A DNA stretch of 64,000 nucleotides from Halothece sp. PCC 7418 (GTDB lineage Bacteria; Cyanobacteriota; Cyanobacteriia; Cyanobacteriales; Rubidibacteraceae), in assembly GCF_000317635.1 (NCBI RefSeq), contig NC_019779.1, positions 3,162,001 to 3,226,000 on the forward strand, written 5' to 3'. How positions within the stretch are numbered: position 1 is the stretch's first letter; each line of letters starts with the position of its first letter. Made by a program: the position numbers and the translations under genes. Below the pieces are notes generated by a model. That model was given only the letters and a program-made list of their open reading frames with translations, did no database searches and was not told the DNA's origin. Positions 2,463-17,172 of this stretch are shown one piece after another.

Positions 2463-2482
2463 AAAGAACCAAGAACAAATTT

Positions 2483-3514
2483 CTAATAAAATTCAACCTC
2501 AAACATTTCATCGAGAATGGCTTCTAAGTCTTCAACCGTTATTGCTGTGCCTAAATCGGGACCTCTCATAAAGTCTTGAATTGTCATTTTTTGATCTCGA
2601 AAATCTCGCACGAAATCTCGAATTTCTGTCATAAATTCTAATTGTTTTTCTCCTTCTGCAACCACATCAGCAATGGGATCAACCCCTTCTTTGGTTGCAC
2701 GGCGATAATCCGTAACGGCTGATCCTTCTGGGGTTTGTCGGAGGTAGCGCAATTCTTGTTTAATTTCTTCGTATTGTTGCGCTAACAACTCATTTTCCCG
2801 CATCAGTTTTGAGCGTTGCTTTTCTGCATTACTTTCTTGATCGTTATTCGCAGCAAACTCAGTGAGATCGTGTTGTTTGCTTTCAATCTCGAGAAGTTTA
2901 GCGAAGTCCCCTGTTTGGTAGGCTTCATTCACTTCTTGCATGATTGCTGTGTATTGTTCTTGGGTTTCGCTATCCGTTACTTTATCGGGGTGAAAACGAC
3001 TGGCGAGACGCAAAAAGATATCTCGCATTTTACGTTGATTGGCTGGCGGATCGCTCATCTCTTTTGGTTGATTTGAGTCTTGAGTTTCTTCTTGAAAGCC
3101 CTCTTTTGCTTGGGCAAATTCTTCAGCAAATTCCTCTGAAAATGGGTTTGTTTCGTCGTCTTCCCCTGGTGAGCTAATTAGACCATCGCTTTGCAAAGAT
3201 TCATAGACGCTTTGGATTTTCTTTCGGCTTTTTTTACCGAACTTTCTTTTGGTGAAAATTTCTTGAAAGAGTTGATGAATTTCGCGATCGCGCTCCATCA
3301 TTTTTTCCATAATCGGACGACTTCTCTGAAACATTTCTTGAGCAATTTCTTGCATTTGATTCACTAAGTTTTTTAACTCAGTGCGCTTGCGTTTAATTTG
3401 CTTCAGAAACCATTGCTGGTCTTTTTTGAGGGCTGCAATTTGGTCGTGAACTTCAGAAAGAGCGAGAGACTGGCTTTTGGGTTGAGAGGACTTAGATTTG
3501 CGCGATCGACTCAT
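2483..3514 (-). CDS. J-domain-like protein with coiled coils
   Basis: A 343-residue, highly charged soluble protein. Residues about 1-95 are predicted coiled coil rich in Lys, Arg, Gln and Glu; about 110-160 are acidic and low complexity. A J-domain-like segment follows at about 160-215, with RDIFLRLASRFHPDKV carrying the HPD tripeptide that in DnaJ proteins stimulates Hsp70 ATPase, then a NEAYQTGD helix. The rest is another helical region. It is probably a DnaJ-like co-chaperone or scaffold; its partner is unknown. It ends downstream of the cpcT repeat and lies upstream of ddl on the same strand, about 45 bases away. Confidence 0.7.
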   Translation of the reverse strand: MSRSRKSKSSQPKSQSLALSEVHDQIAALKKDQQWFLKQIKRKRTELKNLVNQMQEIAQEMFQRSRPIMEKMMERDREIHQLFQEIFTKRKFGKKSRKKIQSVYESLQSDGLISSPGEDDETNPFSEEFAEEFAQAKEGFQEETQDSNQPKEMSDPPANQRKMRDIFLRLASRFHPDKVTDSETQEQYTAIMQEVNEAYQTGDFAKLLEIESKQHDLTEFAANNDQESNAEKQRSKLMRENELLAQQYEEIKQELRYLRQTPEGSAVTDYRRATKEGVDPIADVVAEGEKQLEFMTEIRDFVRDFRDQKMTIQDFMRGPDLGTAITVEDLEAILDEMFEVEFY

Positions 3515-3559
3515 GGCTAAATGGGCTGGCGTTTGCCTATTATTTTGCCATATTTATTC

Positions 3560-4609
3560 TTACTGATGGTGGTGTAACCCTAATTGAATTAACCGATCCA
3601 CCAGTTGCGGAAAAGGAATCCCTGTTGCTTCCCATAAGCGAGGATACATACTGGTTACAGTAAACCCAGGAAGCGTATTAATTTCATTGACATAAACTTG
3701 ACCTGTACTTTCTTCATAAAACACATCCACACGGGCTAAACCAGCAGCATCAACCGCAGTAAAGGCTTGTTTGGCTAATTCTTGCACTGCTTTAAAAATT
3801 TTGTCAGGGAGAGGCGCAGGAATATAAAGTTCAGCTTTGCCTTCAGTATATTTGGTTTCATAGTCATAAAAATCGGTAGTGTAGCTAATCTCACCAATAA
3901 CTGAGGCTTGGGGATATTCATTCCCTAAAATGGCACATTCTACCTCTCTGGCGACAATTCCTTGTTCAACAATAATCCGACGATCATAGTTGGCTGCTTC
4001 ATCGAGGGCGGTTTCTAATTCCGATCGCGTTTTGGCTTTAGAAATCCCGACCGATGATCCTAAATTAGCAGGCTTGACAAAACAAGGATAATCAATTTCT
4101 TCCTCAATTTCGTCGCAAAGTTTGGGAAAAACACAAGGACTCGACCAAACTTTATCGCGCTGAATCCCTTTATACTTAACTTGGGGCAGTCCTGCTTGAG
4201 CAAAAGCAGTTTTCATGGCTAACTTATCCATTCCTACAGCCGAACCAAGGACACCACTACCCACAAAAGGCACTTGCATTAACTTTAACAAGCCTTGAAC
4301 CGTTCCATCTTCGCCATTGGGGCCATGTAAAATCGGAAACCAAACATCAATGGTACTGGCGACGGCGGGTAAATCCCATCTTTCCCCAGAGGCTTGTAGT
4401 GCGGAGGGAGTCTGTTGTTTTAAAACCTGATCAGCCAGTTCGCCAGCTTTCCAGATGCCATTTTCTTGAATATATACGGGAATGACTTCATATTTGTGGC
4501 TGTTCTCTTCCATTTGTAGGGCTTGCGCGATCGCGCTTGCAGAACGAATCGATACCTCATGTTCTCCAGAACATCCGCCAAATAATAATCCAACCCGTAA
4601 CTTACTCAT
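3560..4609 (-). CDS. ddl: D-alanine--D-alanine ligase
   Basis: A 349-residue ATP-grasp enzyme of standard length that makes the D-Ala-D-Ala dipeptide for peptidoglycan precursors in the cytoplasm. Visible signatures are the N-terminal [17 protein letters not shown], the [14 protein letters not shown] signature at about residues 95-108, the ATP-grasp segment [16 protein letters not shown], and the metal-binding end [19 protein letters not shown]. The ATG start is supported by alignment of the first motif. Next upstream is a DUF350 gene on the same strand, about 110 bases away. Confidence 0.95.
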
Positions 4610-4718
4610 ATCTTGCTAGTTTGTTCATTAATTTTAATCTCATAGCCTACCACACTCCACAGAATTTAGTGGAACTGAGAAAAAAACTCTTCTTTTCCTT
4701 GCTAAAAGTTAACTGATT

Positions 4719-4928
4719 TTAAGTGACAATCACAGCAACAATAATTGCAGTCACAGAAAGAATAAATGCTCCCACAAAAATCGCTGCTGCAACGTTTCCC
4801 CGTCGAATTTCTCCCCGATAGTCGGTGGGCGTAATTGTATCAAATAAATACACTGCTCCATAAAGCAGAATGACACCAAACAAAGCCCAAGCGAGGGTTT
4901 CCACAACTGCTTGTAACACTAACATCAT
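4719..4928 (-). CDS. DUF350-family small membrane protein
   Basis: About 69 residues if the ATG at 4928 is used; a TTG at 4946 would add six. Two hydrophobic helices flank a short polar loop (LFDTITPTDYRGEIRRGN), the pattern of DUF350 (YjfL-like) inner-membrane proteins, here present as a single unit rather than the usual tandem. Function is unknown; relatives are often found beside other envelope proteins. It is divergent from the gene at 5029, leaving about 100 bases for both promoters. Confidence 0.7.
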   Translation of the reverse strand: MMLVLQAVVETLAWALFGVILLYGAVYLFDTITPTDYRGEIRRGNVAAAIFVGAFILSVTAIIVAVIVT

Positions 4929-5028
4929 GATTAAGAAATCTCTCAAGCCTTCTCTAAAATTGTATGCTGAGAGAGAGCTAAAAGTTCATGATTTTTGTTT
5001 TCGATCACGTTTAATTATCCCGAGAAAA

Positions 5029-6036
5029 ATGTCAGTCAGTGTTCAATCTTCTAACAGCAGTCGTTTTGTCGATCATAGCCTTAACATTAGTTCCCTTGCC
5101 TTACTATTAATGATGATTGCGGGGATTGGGAGTTTATTTTTCCCTCAACAAGTGACTAACCAAATGGTCAAAGTTCTTCCTGAAGAAACTACCCAACTTT
5201 CTCCCATTACCATCGAACGTCGCCTCGTTGGGGCTTTACGAATAGATGTGAAAGCGATCATCCCAACCAATCATTGGGTGGTTTATGAAATTCGGCTGTA
5301 TGATGATCAAAATGAACTTCTAGCTTCAGCGATTAAAGAAGCCTGGAAAGAGTCTGGAGTCTGGCGAGAAGATGGCGAAACTGGAACTTGGTCAGAGTCT
5401 GATTTGTTAGGCGGGTTAGATGTTCGCTTGGCGGAGAAAAAGCGAGAAGACATAACAATTGCTGTCGCGGTTTTAGAATATGGCGAAACTCGGGGACAAG
5501 TCATTACCGATCAACCCGTTTCTTTTCGCGTGGATGTTGATAATGGTGTCATTGATGGTCGCTATCTTTGGGTCGGATTTTTTGGCGTTTTGTTTATGGT
5601 GATTCTCAACCGCTTGTCTGTAACAACGACAGGGAAAGTAAGAATTCGGAAAACAATTAAGGATAGTGACGTGGGAGAACGGGCGATTGTCGGTGGAGAA
5701 AATTCTTTAATTCGAGTGACGGTCAATGTGAAGTCTGATGAAACCTCACCTCAATCACTAGCTGTAAATTTATGGTTAAAAGATGGGACGGGAGAACAAA
5801 TTTATAGTGAACAAACTCGGATCAAGCTCAATTTTCGTCGCGATGATGGGGAAATTGAAGACGCAACGGGAAAACTCGAACAGTATTTTGTTTTCACCCG
5901 ACGCGGATCTTATGGCTTTTATGTGGAAGTCACCCCTGATCAACCTGTTGATGAAACAACTTTGATTGTCACTGAAAATGCCAAGACTCAATCAGGCAAC
6001 AAACCTGTCAAAATTATTACTGTAGATGCGGATTAA
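5029..6036 (+). CDS. Membrane-anchored protein of unknown function
   Basis: 335 residues from the ATG at 5029. The frame stays open back to 4870, but that stretch lies over the divergent DUF350 gene and looks non-coding. The protein has a hydrophobic helix at about 25-45, an extracytoplasmic beta-rich domain with a WKESGVWREDGETGTW tract, a second transmembrane helix at about 180-195 (LWVGFFGVLFMVILN), and a C-terminal beta-sandwich-like domain of about 130 residues. I do not recognise a named family. Divergence from DUF350 and the small secreted protein 14 bases downstream suggest a shared envelope role. Confidence 0.65.
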   Translation: MSVSVQSSNSSRFVDHSLNISSLALLLMMIAGIGSLFFPQQVTNQMVKVLPEETTQLSPITIERRLVGALRIDVKAIIPTNHWVVYEIRLYDDQNELLASAIKEAWKESGVWREDGETGTWSESDLLGGLDVRLAEKKREDITIAVAVLEYGETRGQVITDQPVSFRVDVDNGVIDGRYLWVGFFGVLFMVILNRLSVTTTGKVRIRKTIKDSDVGERAIVGGENSLIRVTVNVKSDETSPQSLAVNLWLKDGTGEQIYSEQTRIKLNFRRDDGEIEDATGKLEQYFVFTRRGSYGFYVEVTPDQPVDETTLIVTENAKTQSGNKPVKIITVDAD

Positions 6037-13136: not shown

Positions 13137-14279
13137 CTAACAATCGCCCGCAACACATAAGTTAAGATGTTCACTTAACCAAGGCGTATCAACCAATGCA
13201 CGAAGAAAAATCCCTCGCGCACCATTTAAATCTCGATCCATTTTCCGATTATCTACCTTTGAGCGAATTGTCTTCGCTCCCCCTAAATTGTGGATGATCT
13301 CTCCAGTCCAGCTAACCGTTTTAGAAGTGTAGGCTTCATTTACATCTAAAATGACTTTCTTGTACTCATAAGCTTTACTCTTCAAAAACTCCTTAAAGCG
13401 GTAGTGAGAAAGTGTCAGCATCTGTCGGACGGACTTTGAACGAATTCTTCTTTTCCCTTTCTTTGACATTTGACTTGTTTCAAAAGTTGGAAGAAGTATC
13501 ACATCAAAGTGATCCACTAAAAAGCGTGCTGTCTTATGGTGCAACTCTGCGATTAGATTTTTAATCTTTCCACGGATGCGAGAAGCAGCACGTTTCATTC
13601 GTCTTTTTTGTTTTGATTTAGCTTTTGAGATTTTAGAGACCAAACGATCTAGCTTAAAACAAAGTTTTTGGATTTTCTCGTTTGCTCTTTCTCCCAGCCA
13701 GCCATAAGAAGATTCGGAAAAGAAGGTGAGGAAAGTTCGGATTCCAGGATCAAGGGCTACTACGCGACCTTGGTTCTCAGTCGCCTTTACCTCTACGGGT
13801 TGCGGAATCACCAGAAAGTATTCATTATAAGCGAGAATCAATCGACAATCGCCATAAGTTTCGGGTAGCGGTTCTTTGTAGCTAAGACACCCTAACTTTG
13901 TATGATAAATTCCTTTTTCTTTTACTGCTGATTTGGGGATATAGCACGATTGTACGGGCTTCTTACGGGAACGAAATCGAACGCGATTAAATCCCTCTCC
14001 GTTTATGCACTTCTTTTTTGCATTAGAAACCGCTTGACAAGCATCCTTAACTGCAATTGATTTAATTTGATAGGGAACACAACTGCACCAGTCAGGAAGG
14101 CTATTGAGGATTTCTCCTTTAATTGCTTTCCAATTCGCTTTTGTTTCTGGCTGCTTTAGGTATTCAACAGTTCGGTTAAAGACGAACCTTGATACTCCAA
14201 ACCAATGACGGACAATCTGCTTCTGCTCACTATTTAGGAAGATCCTGATCTTGTTTGATCTTCTTAGCGTACTTTCGGA
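13137..14279 (-). CDS. tnpB: IS607-type TnpB, RNA-guided nuclease-like
   Basis: About 380 residues beginning near SNKIRIFLNSEQKQ. No ATG, GTG or TTG is found in frame close to this point, and the frame's ATG at 14735 lies within tnpA, so the start is uncertain. RuvC-type catalytic segments are present: ALDPGIRTF (Asp), LPTFETS (Glu) and MDRDLNGARG (Asp). The zinc-ribbon region reads TSKTVSWTGEI where many TnpB proteins have CxxC, and the second Cys pair is also absent. TnpB proteins are RNA-guided nucleases that promote retention of the element; the guide RNA would be expected to overlap the 3' end of this gene. Activity is unproven. Confidence 0.8.
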   Translation of the reverse strand, partial: SESTLRRSNKIRIFLNSEQKQIVRHWFGVSRFVFNRTVEYLKQPETKANWKAIKGEILNSLPDWCSCVPYQIKSIAVKDACQAVSNAKKKCINGEGFNRVRFRSRKKPVQSCYIPKSAVKEKGIYHTKLGCLSYKEPLPETYGDCRLILAYNEYFLVIPQPVEVKATENQGRVVALDPGIRTFLTFFSESSYGWLGERANEKIQKLCFKLDRLVSKISKAKSKQKRRMKRAASRIRGKIKNLIAELHHKTARFLVDHFDVILLPTFETSQMSKKGKRRIRSKSVRQMLTLSHYRFKEFLKSKAYEYKKVILDVNEAYTSKTVSWTGEIIHNLGGAKTIRSKVDNRKMDRDLNGARGIFLRALVDTPWLSEHLNLCVAGDC

Positions 14280-14803
14280 GTCCGTGCATTCGACAACTGA
14301 AGACGTGAATGATGGAGAGAAGATCGGCGCTAAGTTCTGATTCTGGACAGTGAACAGGTTGTTCGAGAACCACGATTTTCCCACCGTTGGACTGAACCAT
14401 ATATTCGATGAGTTCAAATCCGAATCGGAGAAGTCGGTCTCGACAGGCAACAACAAGGATGAACTGATCTCCGCGCAGCAGTCTGTCCAATAAGGAGCGC
14501 AATCCTTTTCGCTTGAAGTTGATTCCAGACCCGATGTCTTTAATAACTTCTGCTTCGGGGTAGAGGGAGAGGAGGTAGGCTTCTTGTCGCAATAAGTCGT
14601 CTTTTTGTTTGTGGGAGGAGACGCGACAGTAGCAAATAACGGCAGTTCGAGTTGCCCCTTTGATGTAGGAGTTGCAGTCGAATAACCTTTGCCCTGCTTC
14701 GTTTCTGATTGATTTGATTTTCCCTTGATCGGCATATTTTCTAAGGGTGTTGGGGTGCAGTCAAGGGTGTTTCAACTGCTTTTCTAAGAGGAACATAAGA
14801 CAT
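14230..14803 (-). pseudogene. tnpA: IS607 serine recombinase TnpA, frameshifted
   Basis: ATG at 14803 starts MSYVPLRKAVET, the MerR-like DNA-binding head of IS607 TnpA, but the frame ends at a TAG at 14741-14743. The rest continues in a second frame from about 14760: LHPNTLRKYADQGKIKSIR, then ICYCRVSSHKQKDDLLRQ with the serine-recombinase active-site Ser, then the conserved FSCRMHGLRKYAKKIKQD end at 14230. One surplus base at about 14761-14767 explains the break. As written it cannot make a full transposase, so the element is probably immobile unless helped in trans. Confidence 0.82.
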
Positions 14804-14854: not shown

Positions 14855-17134
14855 TTAACCCTCACTGTCTTCAACATCATCAGGATTGACATCAGCAAGA
14901 AACGAAAAATCTTTCTGGTCAAAATCCATCACTTCTCCCTGAAAGGCATTGGCTAACTCTTTCGCAATTTTTTCTAAGGCTTTTGCATCAGTTGATTCAT
15001 CTGTGGACTCCTCTGGTTGAACAACTGCAGAGAGGGCTTCCTCAGAGATTTGTTCTGTTGTCGATTCTGGTACAGACAAAGGCTCATTAGCATTTTGTTC
15101 AGTAGGGGGAGATGATGTTTCCTGTTTTGCTTCAGGAGGGGTCTCCTTTTTTTCTGCTGGTGGCGGTTCTGGTTTTCTCTCAGGAGGCGGTGGAACTGAT
15201 TTTTCTTGGGGAGGAGACTGTAGCGTTGTTCCCGTCATGACTTGCAAATGAACGGTCATCTGCTGATGGAAAATGTCTGTGAGAACTTTTTCTAAATCCC
15301 CTTTGCGTCTTTTGGCATATCGATCGAGCAGTTGTTGACTTTTGACTCCCACTTGCACAGTCTCGTCTTGAATCGCTAACAACCGACAATGTTGTTCAAA
15401 CAGGGCTCGGGAAGGAATCGGTAAACGGGCTAAGAGTTGCTCCCAGATTTCTGCTTCGTTACCAGTGACCGCTGGGGTGGGAGTCGGCGGTGTTTCCGAT
15501 TTCTCAACCACGGGTGGGGAGACTGGTGAAGAAGCTGTTTTTTCGGGTTCTGGGGAGGATTGAACCCTTTCGCGCTGAGGAGGGGCTGATGATGGCGTGA
15601 CAGAGGCTTGAGTCTGAATCGGATGACCGTTTGACTGGGGGAGGGCTAGGGGTTGATCATCGCTCGTTAATAATCCTAAGAGAGTCACTTCTAACCACAA
15701 GCGAGGTTGAGTGGTCTGTTTAATTTGAGCTTCATTCTTTTGAAGATGCCTTTGTCCTGTTAAAATTTCACTGAGTTCCCATTGCTGAGCAATTTCGCAC
15801 AGTTGTTCCCAAGTTGATGCGGTGAGAGTGACTAATTCCGATTGCTTGGGGGCGGTTTTGGCAATCAGTAAGTCACGATAGAATCCTGCAAGGTTTTCTA
15901 AAACAATAATTGGTTCTCGTCCCCGATCCATCAGTTGACGACACCGACTTAAAATTTGATCGCCATTTTTTTTCTTGATGGCTTGCAAAAGAGCGATTAA
16001 GTCTTGTTCTGGGATCGCGCCCACTAAATCCCAAACTCGTTCAATGGTAATTGTTCCTGATAATAGACTCAGTTGATCGAGGAGGCTTTGAGCATCTCTT
16101 AACCCGCCCTGGGCGACTTGTGCAATCACCGCAAGGGCTTCTTCTGTAATGTCAATGGCTTCTTTTTGCGCGATCGCGCTTAAATGAGCCGTCATCGCAC
16201 CCAGAGGAATCCGTTGAAAGTCAAACCGTTGACAACGAGAAATAATCGTCGGTAACACCCGTTGCGGATCTGTCGTCGCCAGAACAAACACCACGCGCGG
16301 GGGTGGTTCTTCCAAGGTTTTCAAAAGCGCATTAAACGCAGCGGTGCTGAGCATATGACAATTATGAACCAGCACTCCATTCGCCACAAAATTATGATGA
16401 TCTTCCACTTCTAAATCATAAACTGCTGCTTTCCCCGCCGTTTGAATCATTTCAACGCTCTCCACTCCATTCGGGGAAAGGAGTTTCATTCCCACTTGCA
16501 ACTGTTGAGCTTTAATCCATCCTTGTTCCGTTCGCAAAAGATGGTTTTCAGTACACTGAAGTTGAGAGTGACTGGTTTGTAACTGTAAAGTCTCTTTCAC
16601 CCCTTGCTGCAACCAGCGTACAACTTTTTTCTCTTCCCAACTCTCTGTGGTTTCGTTATAGCTGAGAACCGTTTTCCCTTTCAGGTTAGGATCATCCAGT
16701 CTCATCTCTCCCTGAGACGTGCGGATGAGCGTATCCCCTGTTAAACATTCATCAATGATGTAAAGTTTATATCGGCATTGCACCGGGGCAAAACTGGAGC
16801 GCTCAATAATTTCTCGAATATTATCGACACCTGTATTACTGGCTGCATCAATTTCGATAATATCGAGGGCAGAACTATTGCTAATCGCCCGACAAACCTC
16901 ACATTGACCGCAGGGTTGTGCTGTGGGTTCACTGCTGTGAATACAGTTGAGAGATTTAGCTAAAATACGGGCGGAAGAGGTTTTTCCGGTTCCTCGCGGA
17001 CCACTGAATAAATAAGCAGGAGCGATGCGTTGACGGTCTATGGCATTACTAAGGGTTTGCGCGATCGCGCTTTGTCCGACCAGATCAGCAAAGGTTTGGG
17101 GGCGATACTTCTGATGGAGGGGTTCGTAGGACAT
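14855..17134 (-). CDS. dnaX: DNA polymerase III tau/gamma subunit with intein
   Basis: The clamp-loader ATPase of the replicative polymerase, split by an in-frame intein. Start ATG 17134 (MSYEPLHQKYRPQTFADLVGQ) is preferred over a TTG at 17146. Walker A is GPRGTGKT and the zinc module is CGQCEVC. The Walker B/sensor region is interrupted after IIDE and resumes with CHMLSTAAFNALLKTLEEPP (DExx box IIDECHML when spliced). After the clamp-loader domains comes a Pro/Glu-rich linker (about 510-690) and an acidic tail. Spliced length is about 630 residues. The gene is followed by the IS607 element on the same strand. Confidence 0.95.
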   Translation of the reverse strand: MSYEPLHQKYRPQTFADLVGQSAIAQTLSNAIDRQRIAPAYLFSGPRGTGKTSSARILAKSLNCIHSSEPTAQPCGQCEVCRAISNSSALDIIEIDAASNTGVDNIREIIERSSFAPVQCRYKLYIIDECLTGDTLIRTSQGEMRLDDPNLKGKTVLSYNETTESWEEKKVVRWLQQGVKETLQLQTSHSQLQCTENHLLRTEQGWIKAQQLQVGMKLLSPNGVESVEMIQTAGKAAVYDLEVEDHHNFVANGVLVHNCHMLSTAAFNALLKTLEEPPPRVVFVLATTDPQRVLPTIISRCQRFDFQRIPLGAMTAHLSAIAQKEAIDITEEALAVIAQVAQGGLRDAQSLLDQLSLLSGTITIERVWDLVGAIPEQDLIALLQAIKKKNGDQILSRCRQLMDRGREPIIVLENLAGFYRDLLIAKTAPKQSELVTLTASTWEQLCEIAQQWELSEILTGQRHLQKNEAQIKQTTQPRLWLEVTLLGLLTSDDQPLALPQSNGHPIQTQASVTPSSAPPQRERVQSSPEPEKTASSPVSPPVVEKSETPPTPTPAVTGNEAEIWEQLLARLPIPSRALFEQHCRLLAIQDETVQVGVKSQQLLDRYAKRRKGDLEKVLTDIFHQQMTVHLQVMTGTTLQSPPQEKSVPPPPERKPEPPPAEKKETPPEAKQETSSPPTEQNANEPLSVPESTTEQISEEALSAVVQPEESTDESTDAKALEKIAKELANAFQGEVMDFDQKDFSFLADVNPDDVEDSEG
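16361..16747 (-). mobile_element. DnaX mini-intein (129 residues, no homing endonuclease)
   Basis: Begins with the nucleophile Cys in block A (CLTGDTLI) directly after the extein residues IIDE and ends VANGVLVHN before the extein Cys of CHMLS. Block B is CTENHLL with the Thr-x-x-His arrangement. Block F is VYDLEVEDHHNFVANG and block G ends in His-Asn. At 129 residues it is near the minimum for a splicing domain and has no room for a LAGLIDADG or HNH endonuclease. It sits in the ATPase active site of DnaX, a known insertion point in cyanobacterial dnaX. Splicing is required for a functional clamp loader. Confidence 0.93.
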
Positions 17135-17172
17135 AACACTTCCCAATACTGATCACGATACAGACACAAATT

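Follow-up and report, generated by a model that had tools for sequence, protein, structure and literature searches.

We propose that the 129-residue insertion in the dnaX gene of the cyanobacterium Halothece sp. PCC 7418 is very probably a cis-splicing relic of a mobile intein that used two reading frames of the same DNA, with its endonuclease being lost by an in-frame deletion and the remainder then being trimmed. The insertion lies in a stretch of 64,000 nucleotides (nt; contig NC_019779.1, positions 3,162,001 to 3,226,000), which was analysed as a whole and is called the window below. Based on our proposal, in the long relatives of this intein the dnaX frame would encode the splicing domain and an open linker, with the +2 frame of the same DNA encoding a LAGLIDADG endonuclease of about 331 residues. 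The simplest route to the endonuclease would be translation that starts internally, at an ATG sharing bases with the codons for Gly76 and Trp77, and the enzyme would cut the intein-free dnaX at the Walker B codons, leading to homing. In many lineages an in-frame deletion would then have removed the endonuclease gene with the splicing being undisturbed, and more trimming of the leftover linker would have left only a tight turn, at 129 amino acids (aa).

The relatives come from 174 scanned loci, 165 of which gave an intein (126 distinct rows, with genome G483 present twice, as L164 and L211) and nine of which gave none. The 126 DnaX inteins span 129 to 522 aa: three rows have 522 aa, 42 have 429-431, two have 376 and the other 79 have 129-339, the commonest long form being 430 aa. 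Almost all of the length variation falls in the region flanked by the ILSP and VESV...VYD strands. For three long forms, two of 430 aa and one of 376 aa, Pfam gave in the intein frame (frame 1) splicing domains only and no endonuclease match, and the +2 open reading frame (ORF) of those long forms matches PF03161 (LAGLIDADG_2) with E values of 4e-23 and 5e-22. The same match is present in 22 of the 22 members of alignment set A2, in all of which both LAGLIDADG acids (GD and DD) are invariant. Two LAGLIDADG patterns occur in 49 of the 126 inteins (44 of the 45 of at least 429 aa, 5 of the 14 of 200-428 aa and 0 of the 67 shorter ones), and among the three sense frames it is always frame 3 that carries them. 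The +2 ORF has 323-335 codons in 39 of the 47 inteins of at least 370 aa, typically about 331, with 276 codons in two 376-aa forms and 424-429 in the 522-aa forms. Its ATG start overlaps the Gly76-Trp77 codons in 44 of these 47 inteins, that is, in 44 of the 44 having 376-431 aa, and is located at intein nt 228, or at nt 231 in the two 431-aa forms. From residue 114 on, the +2 protein resembles I-SceI and I-WcaI in a sequence-profile comparison (E 2e-8 to 6e-8), and its structural model matches I-WcaI and I-SceI by fold, while its first ~113 residues, carrying two CxCGC modules, lie outside the sequence match. By its family, its two acids and its modelled fold, the +2 protein of the long relatives is thus classed as a LAGLIDADG endonuclease, with the cutting being putative. 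It is noted that the three 522-aa inteins (L131, L164 and L211, the last two from one genome) lack the usual ATG, where an upstream ATG may serve, and that their +2 ORF has an extra CxCGC module, as read in L211. Around eight loci of free-standing cyanobacterial PF03161 genes, no group I intron was matched in Rfam at the gathering score, and a loose motif search for hidden endonucleases in other inteins, which covered 14 cyanobacterial and 5 viral loci, had a single hit, located in the long frame of L059.

The diversity and the codon changes in the 38 inteins of exactly 430 aa, together with synonymous redraws on 35 of them, indicate selection on both frames. In the N-terminal splicing part the diversity is maximal at the frame-1 third positions (0.49), and 76% of the codons with a single change are synonymous in frame 1; in the linker the maximum is at the frame-3 third positions (0.39-0.44), with 68% of such codons being synonymous in frame 3 and 16% in frame 1; and in the N-terminal double-read stretch the diversity is low at every position (0.12-0.17). 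Synonymous redrawing of the endonuclease codons gives a mean of 5.8 stops in the intein frame, which stays open in 25 of 10,500 draws. The natural intein frame, without being required to be so, is open in 169 of the 171 loci with both ends and in 58 of the 58 loci of at least 370 aa, these being counts of loci, some sharing a genome, that were re-examined since the extraction had demanded an open frame. The two loci with a closed frame are one Prochloron record fetched twice (Prochloron didemni L138, the same as L204, G408:C300), the linker of which consists of tandem PPLLRGDRVL repeats with stops and out of frame, and is broken or misassembled. From the substitution pattern and the redraws it follows that the +2 protein is selected and that the intein frame is kept open too. 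Moreover, as judged from the alignments, the double-read stretch is under relaxed constraint in the forms that have lost the endonuclease. Its third-position diversity, taken relative to that upstream, is 0.63-0.83 in the deleted groups and 0.44 in the long forms; all 44 long forms retain the +2 ATG, as do 63 of the 79 deleted ones (Fisher p 0.0006); and +2 stops are found there in 7 of the 79 deleted forms and in none of the 44 long ones (p 0.049), with the rows being related in both comparisons.

The gene in the window and its insertion are laid out as follows.

14855 to 17146, minus strand: dnaX (DNA polymerase III gamma/tau) ORF, 763 codons from TTG, matching NCBIfam NF011510 in two stretches (E 3e-243)
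16748 to 17146, minus strand: N-extein, with the last residues in Walker B (...LYIIDE), by reading frame and Pfam
16361 to 16747, minus strand: intein, Cys1 to Asn129, 387 nt or 129 codons, by family, PDB and model matches
16709 to 16747, minus strand: block A (CLTGDTLIRTSQG), by alignment A1
16541 to 16552, minus strand: block B, TENH (T66-H69), by alignment
16512 to 16520, minus strand: putative relic of the endonuclease start, with the +2-frame codons ATG, GAT and TAA, the first of which shares bases with the codon for Trp77, as read from the sequence
16466 to 16471, minus strand: site of the endonuclease gene in the long relatives and, in the window, predicted tight turn around P92-G94, by alignment and model strands
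16376 to 16423, minus strand: block F (VYDLEVEDHHNFVANG), by alignment
16358 to 16381, minus strand: block G and Cys+1 (NGVLVHN^C), by sequence and alignment
14858 to 16360, minus strand: C-extein, with the first residues CHMLST, by reading frame and Pfam

The block names (A, B, F and G) are the usual ones for inteins, and the dnaX start is more likely the ATG at codon 5 than the TTG. The original prediction of a 129-residue intein at 16361-16747 proves exact in its coordinates: the insertion runs from Cys1 to Asn129, is preceded by ...RYKLYIIDE and followed by CHMLST, giving the site IIDE^CHML between the Walker B Glu and the Cys, and leaves a DnaX product of 634 residues when removed. It matches PF14890 (Intein_splicing) with 52.2 bits, for a cut-off of 35.8, as well as PF07591 in Pfam and TIGR01443/TIGR01445 in NCBIfam (129 aa). 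The closest PDB sequence is that of the Spl DnaX mini-intein 7cfv (E 3e-40), and the AlphaFold model, made from an alignment with 34 relatives (predicted local distance difference test, pLDDT, 97.1; predicted template modelling score, pTM, 0.89), has a HINT fold that is closest to the same structure (TM score 0.92, 51% identity). In order, the insertion carries a Cys start, TENH (the TxxH of block B), VYDLEV...HNF of block F and a His-Asn end before the +1 Cys, as in the class 1 cis-inteins. T66, H69, D111, H118 and H128 are invariant in 126 of the 126 aligned DnaX inteins and the +1 residue is Cys in 126 of 126, where the extraction pattern permitted C, S or T; the conservation of Cys1 and Asn129 is not independent because both were conditions of that pattern. 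Residue 65, just before block B, is a non-catalytic Cys in 125 of the 126 DnaX inteins, for which a redox role is conceivable. With its DE/CHML Walker B site and related splicing domain the insertion belongs to the cyanobacterial DnaX intein alleles, and on this anatomy we infer that it is a class 1 cis-splicing intein that would restore the Walker B region of DnaX. The view that it is a compact cis form inside the ATPase core is borne out, with the insertion at Walker B and dnaX being one continuous frame, unlike a split intein. The same holds for the claim that it has no endonuclease, as expected of a mini-intein: frame 1 matches only splicing families and intein-holding proteins in Pfam and NCBIfam, the +2 frame is shut after two codons, and 387 nt are too short for the ~331-codon endonuclease of the relatives. 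In the genome of the window the DnaX endonuclease gives 0 matches at E<=1e-3, the same query being positive in 19 of 120 genomes of the order. Since the +2 frame is closed and the genome has no match, the window copy most likely cannot home by itself, as had been claimed from the sequence, and it may have spread by ordinary recombination.

The derivation of the mini form from a larger one, which had been put forward for checking by alignment, stands as to the deletion, with the correction that what was lost would be a +2-frame gene rather than an in-frame domain. When inteins of at least 370 aa are scored as long and the others as deleted, at least 34 changes of state are required on the extein tree (123 rows, leaving out three with short exteins) and at least 30 on the intein tree (126 rows); based on our proposal, these would be mostly losses. 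A single gap separates the short and the long form in 16 of the 31 chosen pairs. For example, L092 differs from L183 by one deletion of 867 nt with 21 nt inserted, and L015 differs from L025 by one deletion of 585 nt, with the identity elsewhere rounding to 1.00 in both pairs. The breakpoints vary by lineage, and the gap can be shifted by 0-3 nt in 30 of the pairs and by 5 nt in the remaining one, L016 versus L192. In the congener G121 (L007, 142 aa), the +2 frame reads MDQSKKPQSWNQDTIPCECGCG, one extra residue, SIPSMEYKFGEGRICPPRW and a stop, which in sequence is both endonuclease ends fused with the middle removed; both ends are kept in the +2 frame of the minis L007, L014, L075 and L010, and in the congener G054 (133 aa) only the first end is recognisable. 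Independent evidence of the relics comes from CECGCG and the C-terminal endonuclease end. In the genus of the window, the endonuclease would thus have been lost before or during the radiation, with G121 showing both ends, G054 the start and the window only ATG-GAT-TAA, and the window copy most likely descends, judging from these sequences, from a two-frame intein. If, by contrast, the mini form were ancestral and the endonuclease gene had invaded it later, repeatedly, in the +2 frame, the intermixing of mini and long forms on both trees would fit, and parsimony is directionless here. Both endonuclease ends in L007, L014, L075 and L010 are unexpected in a mini that was never invaded, so that a mini-first history is refuted for those lineages, and the same ATG, offset and 430-aa length are present across families while the deletion junctions vary from case to case. 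We regard this alternative as improbable, and a single deep invasion by the endonuclease, before the cyanobacterial spread, is likely. As a separate observation, the intein of L026, from a metagenome-assembled genome (MAG) of Thermosynechococcus, groups with Nodosilinea-type inteins while its extein is far away, suggesting horizontal transfer.

The descent from a two-frame intein has also to be compared with what has been described for known systems. The Ssp DnaX intein of Synechocystis is, we presume, a long form of 430 aa with the same insertion site and splicing domain as that of the window. The genus code g7, which we take for Synechocystis, is common to L022 (430 aa, with 331 codons in its +2 ORF) and L018 (143 aa), the sequence of PCC 6803 itself being not identified in the set. 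This intein is reportedly the subject of a 1997 FEBS Letters paper, which may have noted the +2 frame. The Spl DnaX mini-intein (Spirulina/Arthrospira platensis, 7cfv) is like the insertion in the window in gene, site, fold and lack of an endonuclease, and unlike it in length (136 versus 129 aa) and linker. Its relatives in the set, L090 (Arthrospira) and the similar L156, are placed far from the window in the extein tree; in the intein tree they make up a separate subgroup inside a cluster of 25 rows, of weak support, to which the genus of the window belongs as well. I-SceI and I-WcaI are intron-encoded LAGLIDADG endonucleases, while the similar DnaX +2 protein is located inside an intein, in a second frame. 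The literature describes a ShiLan domain, a homing endonuclease out of frame in an insertion of a phage methylase with no detectable splicing domain (PMC11855218), and a phage announcement of a ShiLan-like kind (PMC12613952). ShiLan resembles the two-frame intein in having an endonuclease hidden in the other frame of an insertion that is open in the host frame, and differs in being HNH and not LAGLIDADG, in having no splicing domain, in not being classed as an intein and in residing in a phage methylase, while the DnaX inteins have LAGLIDADG_2 plus a clear splicing domain. PMC12455656, considered as a precedent, was set aside as dealing with synthetic overlap design and not a natural case, and PMC3443213 uses a 150-aa form of the Ssp DnaX intein. 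In the literature searched, which was available in part and did not cover the original Ssp DnaX description, no report of an out-of-frame endonuclease inside an intein was found.

Another explanation is that this is an ordinary mini-intein whose ancestor had the usual bifunctional build, with the endonuclease as an in-frame domain; what is seen as a linker in the 430-aa forms would then be a decayed endonuclease. This is how the review PMC3943268 describes intein endonucleases, namely as fusions with the intein, and PMC3620165 counts Ssp DnaX among the inteins with putative complete or partial endonuclease domains. Under an in-frame ancestor, however, it would be hard to see why the LAGLIDADG patterns are present in frame 3 only, why the linker substitutions track that frame and why frame 1 gave no endonuclease match in the three forms scanned; in the long relatives the endonuclease lies in the +2 frame and not in an in-frame domain. 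We thus consider such an ancestor improbable.

That the insertion no longer splices and is tolerated as an extein insertion, as might be suggested by its faster evolution (nonsynonymous divergence, dN, 0.19-0.26 versus 0.03-0.10 in the exteins), is very improbable indeed, because the catalytic residues are intact, the predicted fold is confident, the synonymous divergence (dS) exceeds dN 4.8- to 6.8-fold against four congeners and the insertion interrupts Walker B of the DnaX clamp loader, which is taken to be essential.

Several points weigh against the two-frame origin of the window copy. The C-terminal double-read stretch is without clear double constraint (diversity 0.19, 0.29 and 0.40), the three 522-aa rows carry CTG at the start position, three +2 ORFs end early, at 172, 192 and 294 codons, and a consistent Shine-Dalgarno sequence before the +2 ATG was not seen by eye, no formal test being made. 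The ATG is retained in 63 of the 79 minis, partly because Gly-Trp is needed anyway, and the first ~17 codons of the +2 relics, which fall within the splicing domain, would be similar in any case and do not count as evidence of their own. The support in the intein tree is low, with 15 of 115 inner branches starred, the minimum-change counts give no direction, loss and regain being inseparable, and 15 of the 31 short-long pairs require multiple gaps. The dS in the comparison of the window with its congeners is near saturation. The window keeps almost nothing of the endonuclease, so that the case rests on the congeners and the family, and the splicing, the translation of the endonuclease and its cleavage are putative steps.

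We now consider the smallest size. Exactly 129 aa are found in six rows: the window, G386, a Snowella MAG, Pseudanabaena cinerea, a Kamptonema and a Paraprochloron. Since the window and G386 are sisters on the intein tree (support 82), the 129-aa form is present in five lineages, so that the size is not unique to the genome of the window. L017 has 130 aa with the same 16-residue ILSP-VYD spacing as the 129-aa rows, and among the 126 rows none is below 129 aa and no spacings of 17-19 occur. In the model of the window intein, strands 88-91 and 94-114 are only two residues apart, so that the spacer would have been trimmed to a turn, the exact residues of which (P92-G94) are our own reading of the model; 129 aa may thus be a structural limit. 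The Spl DnaX mini-intein of 136 aa was the smallest then identified, in 2011, as stated in PMC3103413.

The frequency of these inteins was estimated from 388 genomes of the order, a less biased census than the named-genome set, which consists of the best 80 of 116 loci by tblastn and favours short inteins. Among the matches listed, at least 87 of the 388 genomes have an intein at the DnaX site with both ends, the most divergent one, G491, being counted, and two more have the N-terminal end only (G654, complete once fetched, and G636, which runs off its contig). Of the 87 listed, 27 have at least 370 aa, 22 have 170-369 and 38 have under 170, with G421 computing as 126 aa only because its match begins at residue 3. 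Although many such inteins had been said to be split, none is among the matches listed for these genomes. Of the nine scanned loci that gave no intein, L097 is masked, L138 and L204 are the Prochloron record with the frame broken in the linker, L161 and L210 lack an end, and L185, L201, L207 and L208 hold an intein with flanks outside the pattern, all four frames being open. In the genus of the window, the mini form is present in five of the six genomes (129, 129, 133, 138 and 142 aa), and no dnaX intein was found in the sixth, G387, the genome of which is 85% complete; the three genomes of other genera in the family give an extein-only match, as from an empty site. Sequence identity inside the genus is 62-71% for the intein, as compared with 82-94% for the stretches of extein next to it. 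For the window versus four congeners, the dN of the intein is 0.19-0.26 and the dS, near saturation, is 1.07-1.77, with the dN of the exteins, 0.03-0.10 for pairs with the window, being below that of the intein. The intein of the genus, as judged from these rates, is thus under purifying selection that is weaker than that on the exteins.

Relatives of the endonuclease in viruses were taken from IMG/VR and two named phages and classified by script, from lists of best matches, one of which holds the best 80 of 273. Among 91 best-match loci, the endonuclease is out of frame within a longer ORF in 20 and in frame within a long ORF in 18, with the other 53 loci being free-standing or unclear. Of the 23 loci in the first list, 9 are in this classification, 7 are the same contigs as in the larger list and 7 were classified later, giving one more out of frame (L262, in a 669-codon ORF) and six others, so that the total is 21 of 98 best-match loci. 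As a control, in the 71 loci not classed as out of frame, an additional sense frame that is open across the whole match is present in 0 of 71. In 19 of the 20 longer ORFs Pfam Intein_splicing is present at E<=1e-3, 8 being above and 11 below the curated cut-off, with none in L353; the host domains are those of superfamily 2 (SF2) helicases, UvrD-type helicases and terminases. A single element probably accounts for both L276 and L277. The DnaX-like +2 offset occurs in five loci (L278, L287, L320, L253 and L354, the last being gp40 of Xanthomonas phage FoX3), all at DE^C; the Gly-Trp codons are overlapped by ATG in three and by CTG in one, the pattern giving none in FoX3, and L253 has 51% identity to a DnaX intein over the splicing domain. 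In the remaining 15 of the 20 the offset is +1, so that they may have arisen separately. The script did not place the intein ends in 6 of the 20 loci, and the chosen start is doubtful in three of the +1 loci. In the viral synonymous redraws the host frame stays open in 0-6.6% of draws, FoX3 being the weakest at 6.6%. The link between the viral helicase and DnaX inteins is a likeness of sequence, site and frame rather than a rooted history. A viral origin of the mini form was also considered and rejected, the query with the window intein giving five viral loci with weak partial matches throughout. In one viral terminase (L274, on the same contig as L255, host ORF 2467-6009) two inteins are present, the second of which holds an out-of-frame endonuclease.

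In the neighbourhood of dnaX, a transposon-like pair lies directly downstream, at 13137-14735 and 14230-14592, both on the minus strand. The former is a TnpB-type ORF (OrfB_IS605, Cas12f1-like TNB), the 5' part of which overlaps a serine resolvase ORF in another frame, and we take the pair to be IS607-like. Between 14700 and 17700 of the window nine terminator-like sites are present for 3.2 expected, one of them at 17199-17173 on the minus strand, just upstream of dnaX, and the promoter scan gave 5 sites for 4.0 expected. In the same genome, L004 (G000:C1:3645372-3648479) has inteins in two neighbouring genes, thyX with an intein of ~190 aa (by eye) and an upstream dCTP deaminase-like gene with an intein C-terminal end.

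Taken alone, the intein in the window is a further example of the known mini-inteins; what is unexpected is the architecture of the family, of which the window holds a nearly erased example. We think it likely that there is a widespread class of two-frame inteins, comprising the DE^C inteins of DnaX and viral helicases and also those of UvrD-type helicases and terminases, in which splicing and homing are encoded by overlapping frames and not as a fusion, and of which the window carries one end point. Because the two functions would reside in separate proteins on one DNA, any in-frame deletion would drop the endonuclease without harming the splicing, which would explain the 30 or more changes of state and the common floor of 129 aa. 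An endonuclease in an overlapping frame beside an open intein frame would be a different build of a mobile intein, with two proteins selected on the same DNA. If the Synechocystis intein is built likewise, the endonuclease borders derived from the 430-aa reading and used in engineering would concern the wrong frame. Moreover, the copies in the DnaX family, some of them in sister genomes, can be graded from intact through broken, partly deleted and scarred to fully trimmed, so that the gains, losses and persistence in the homing cycle can be counted, and they suggest that structure sets the lower limit on the size of inteins.

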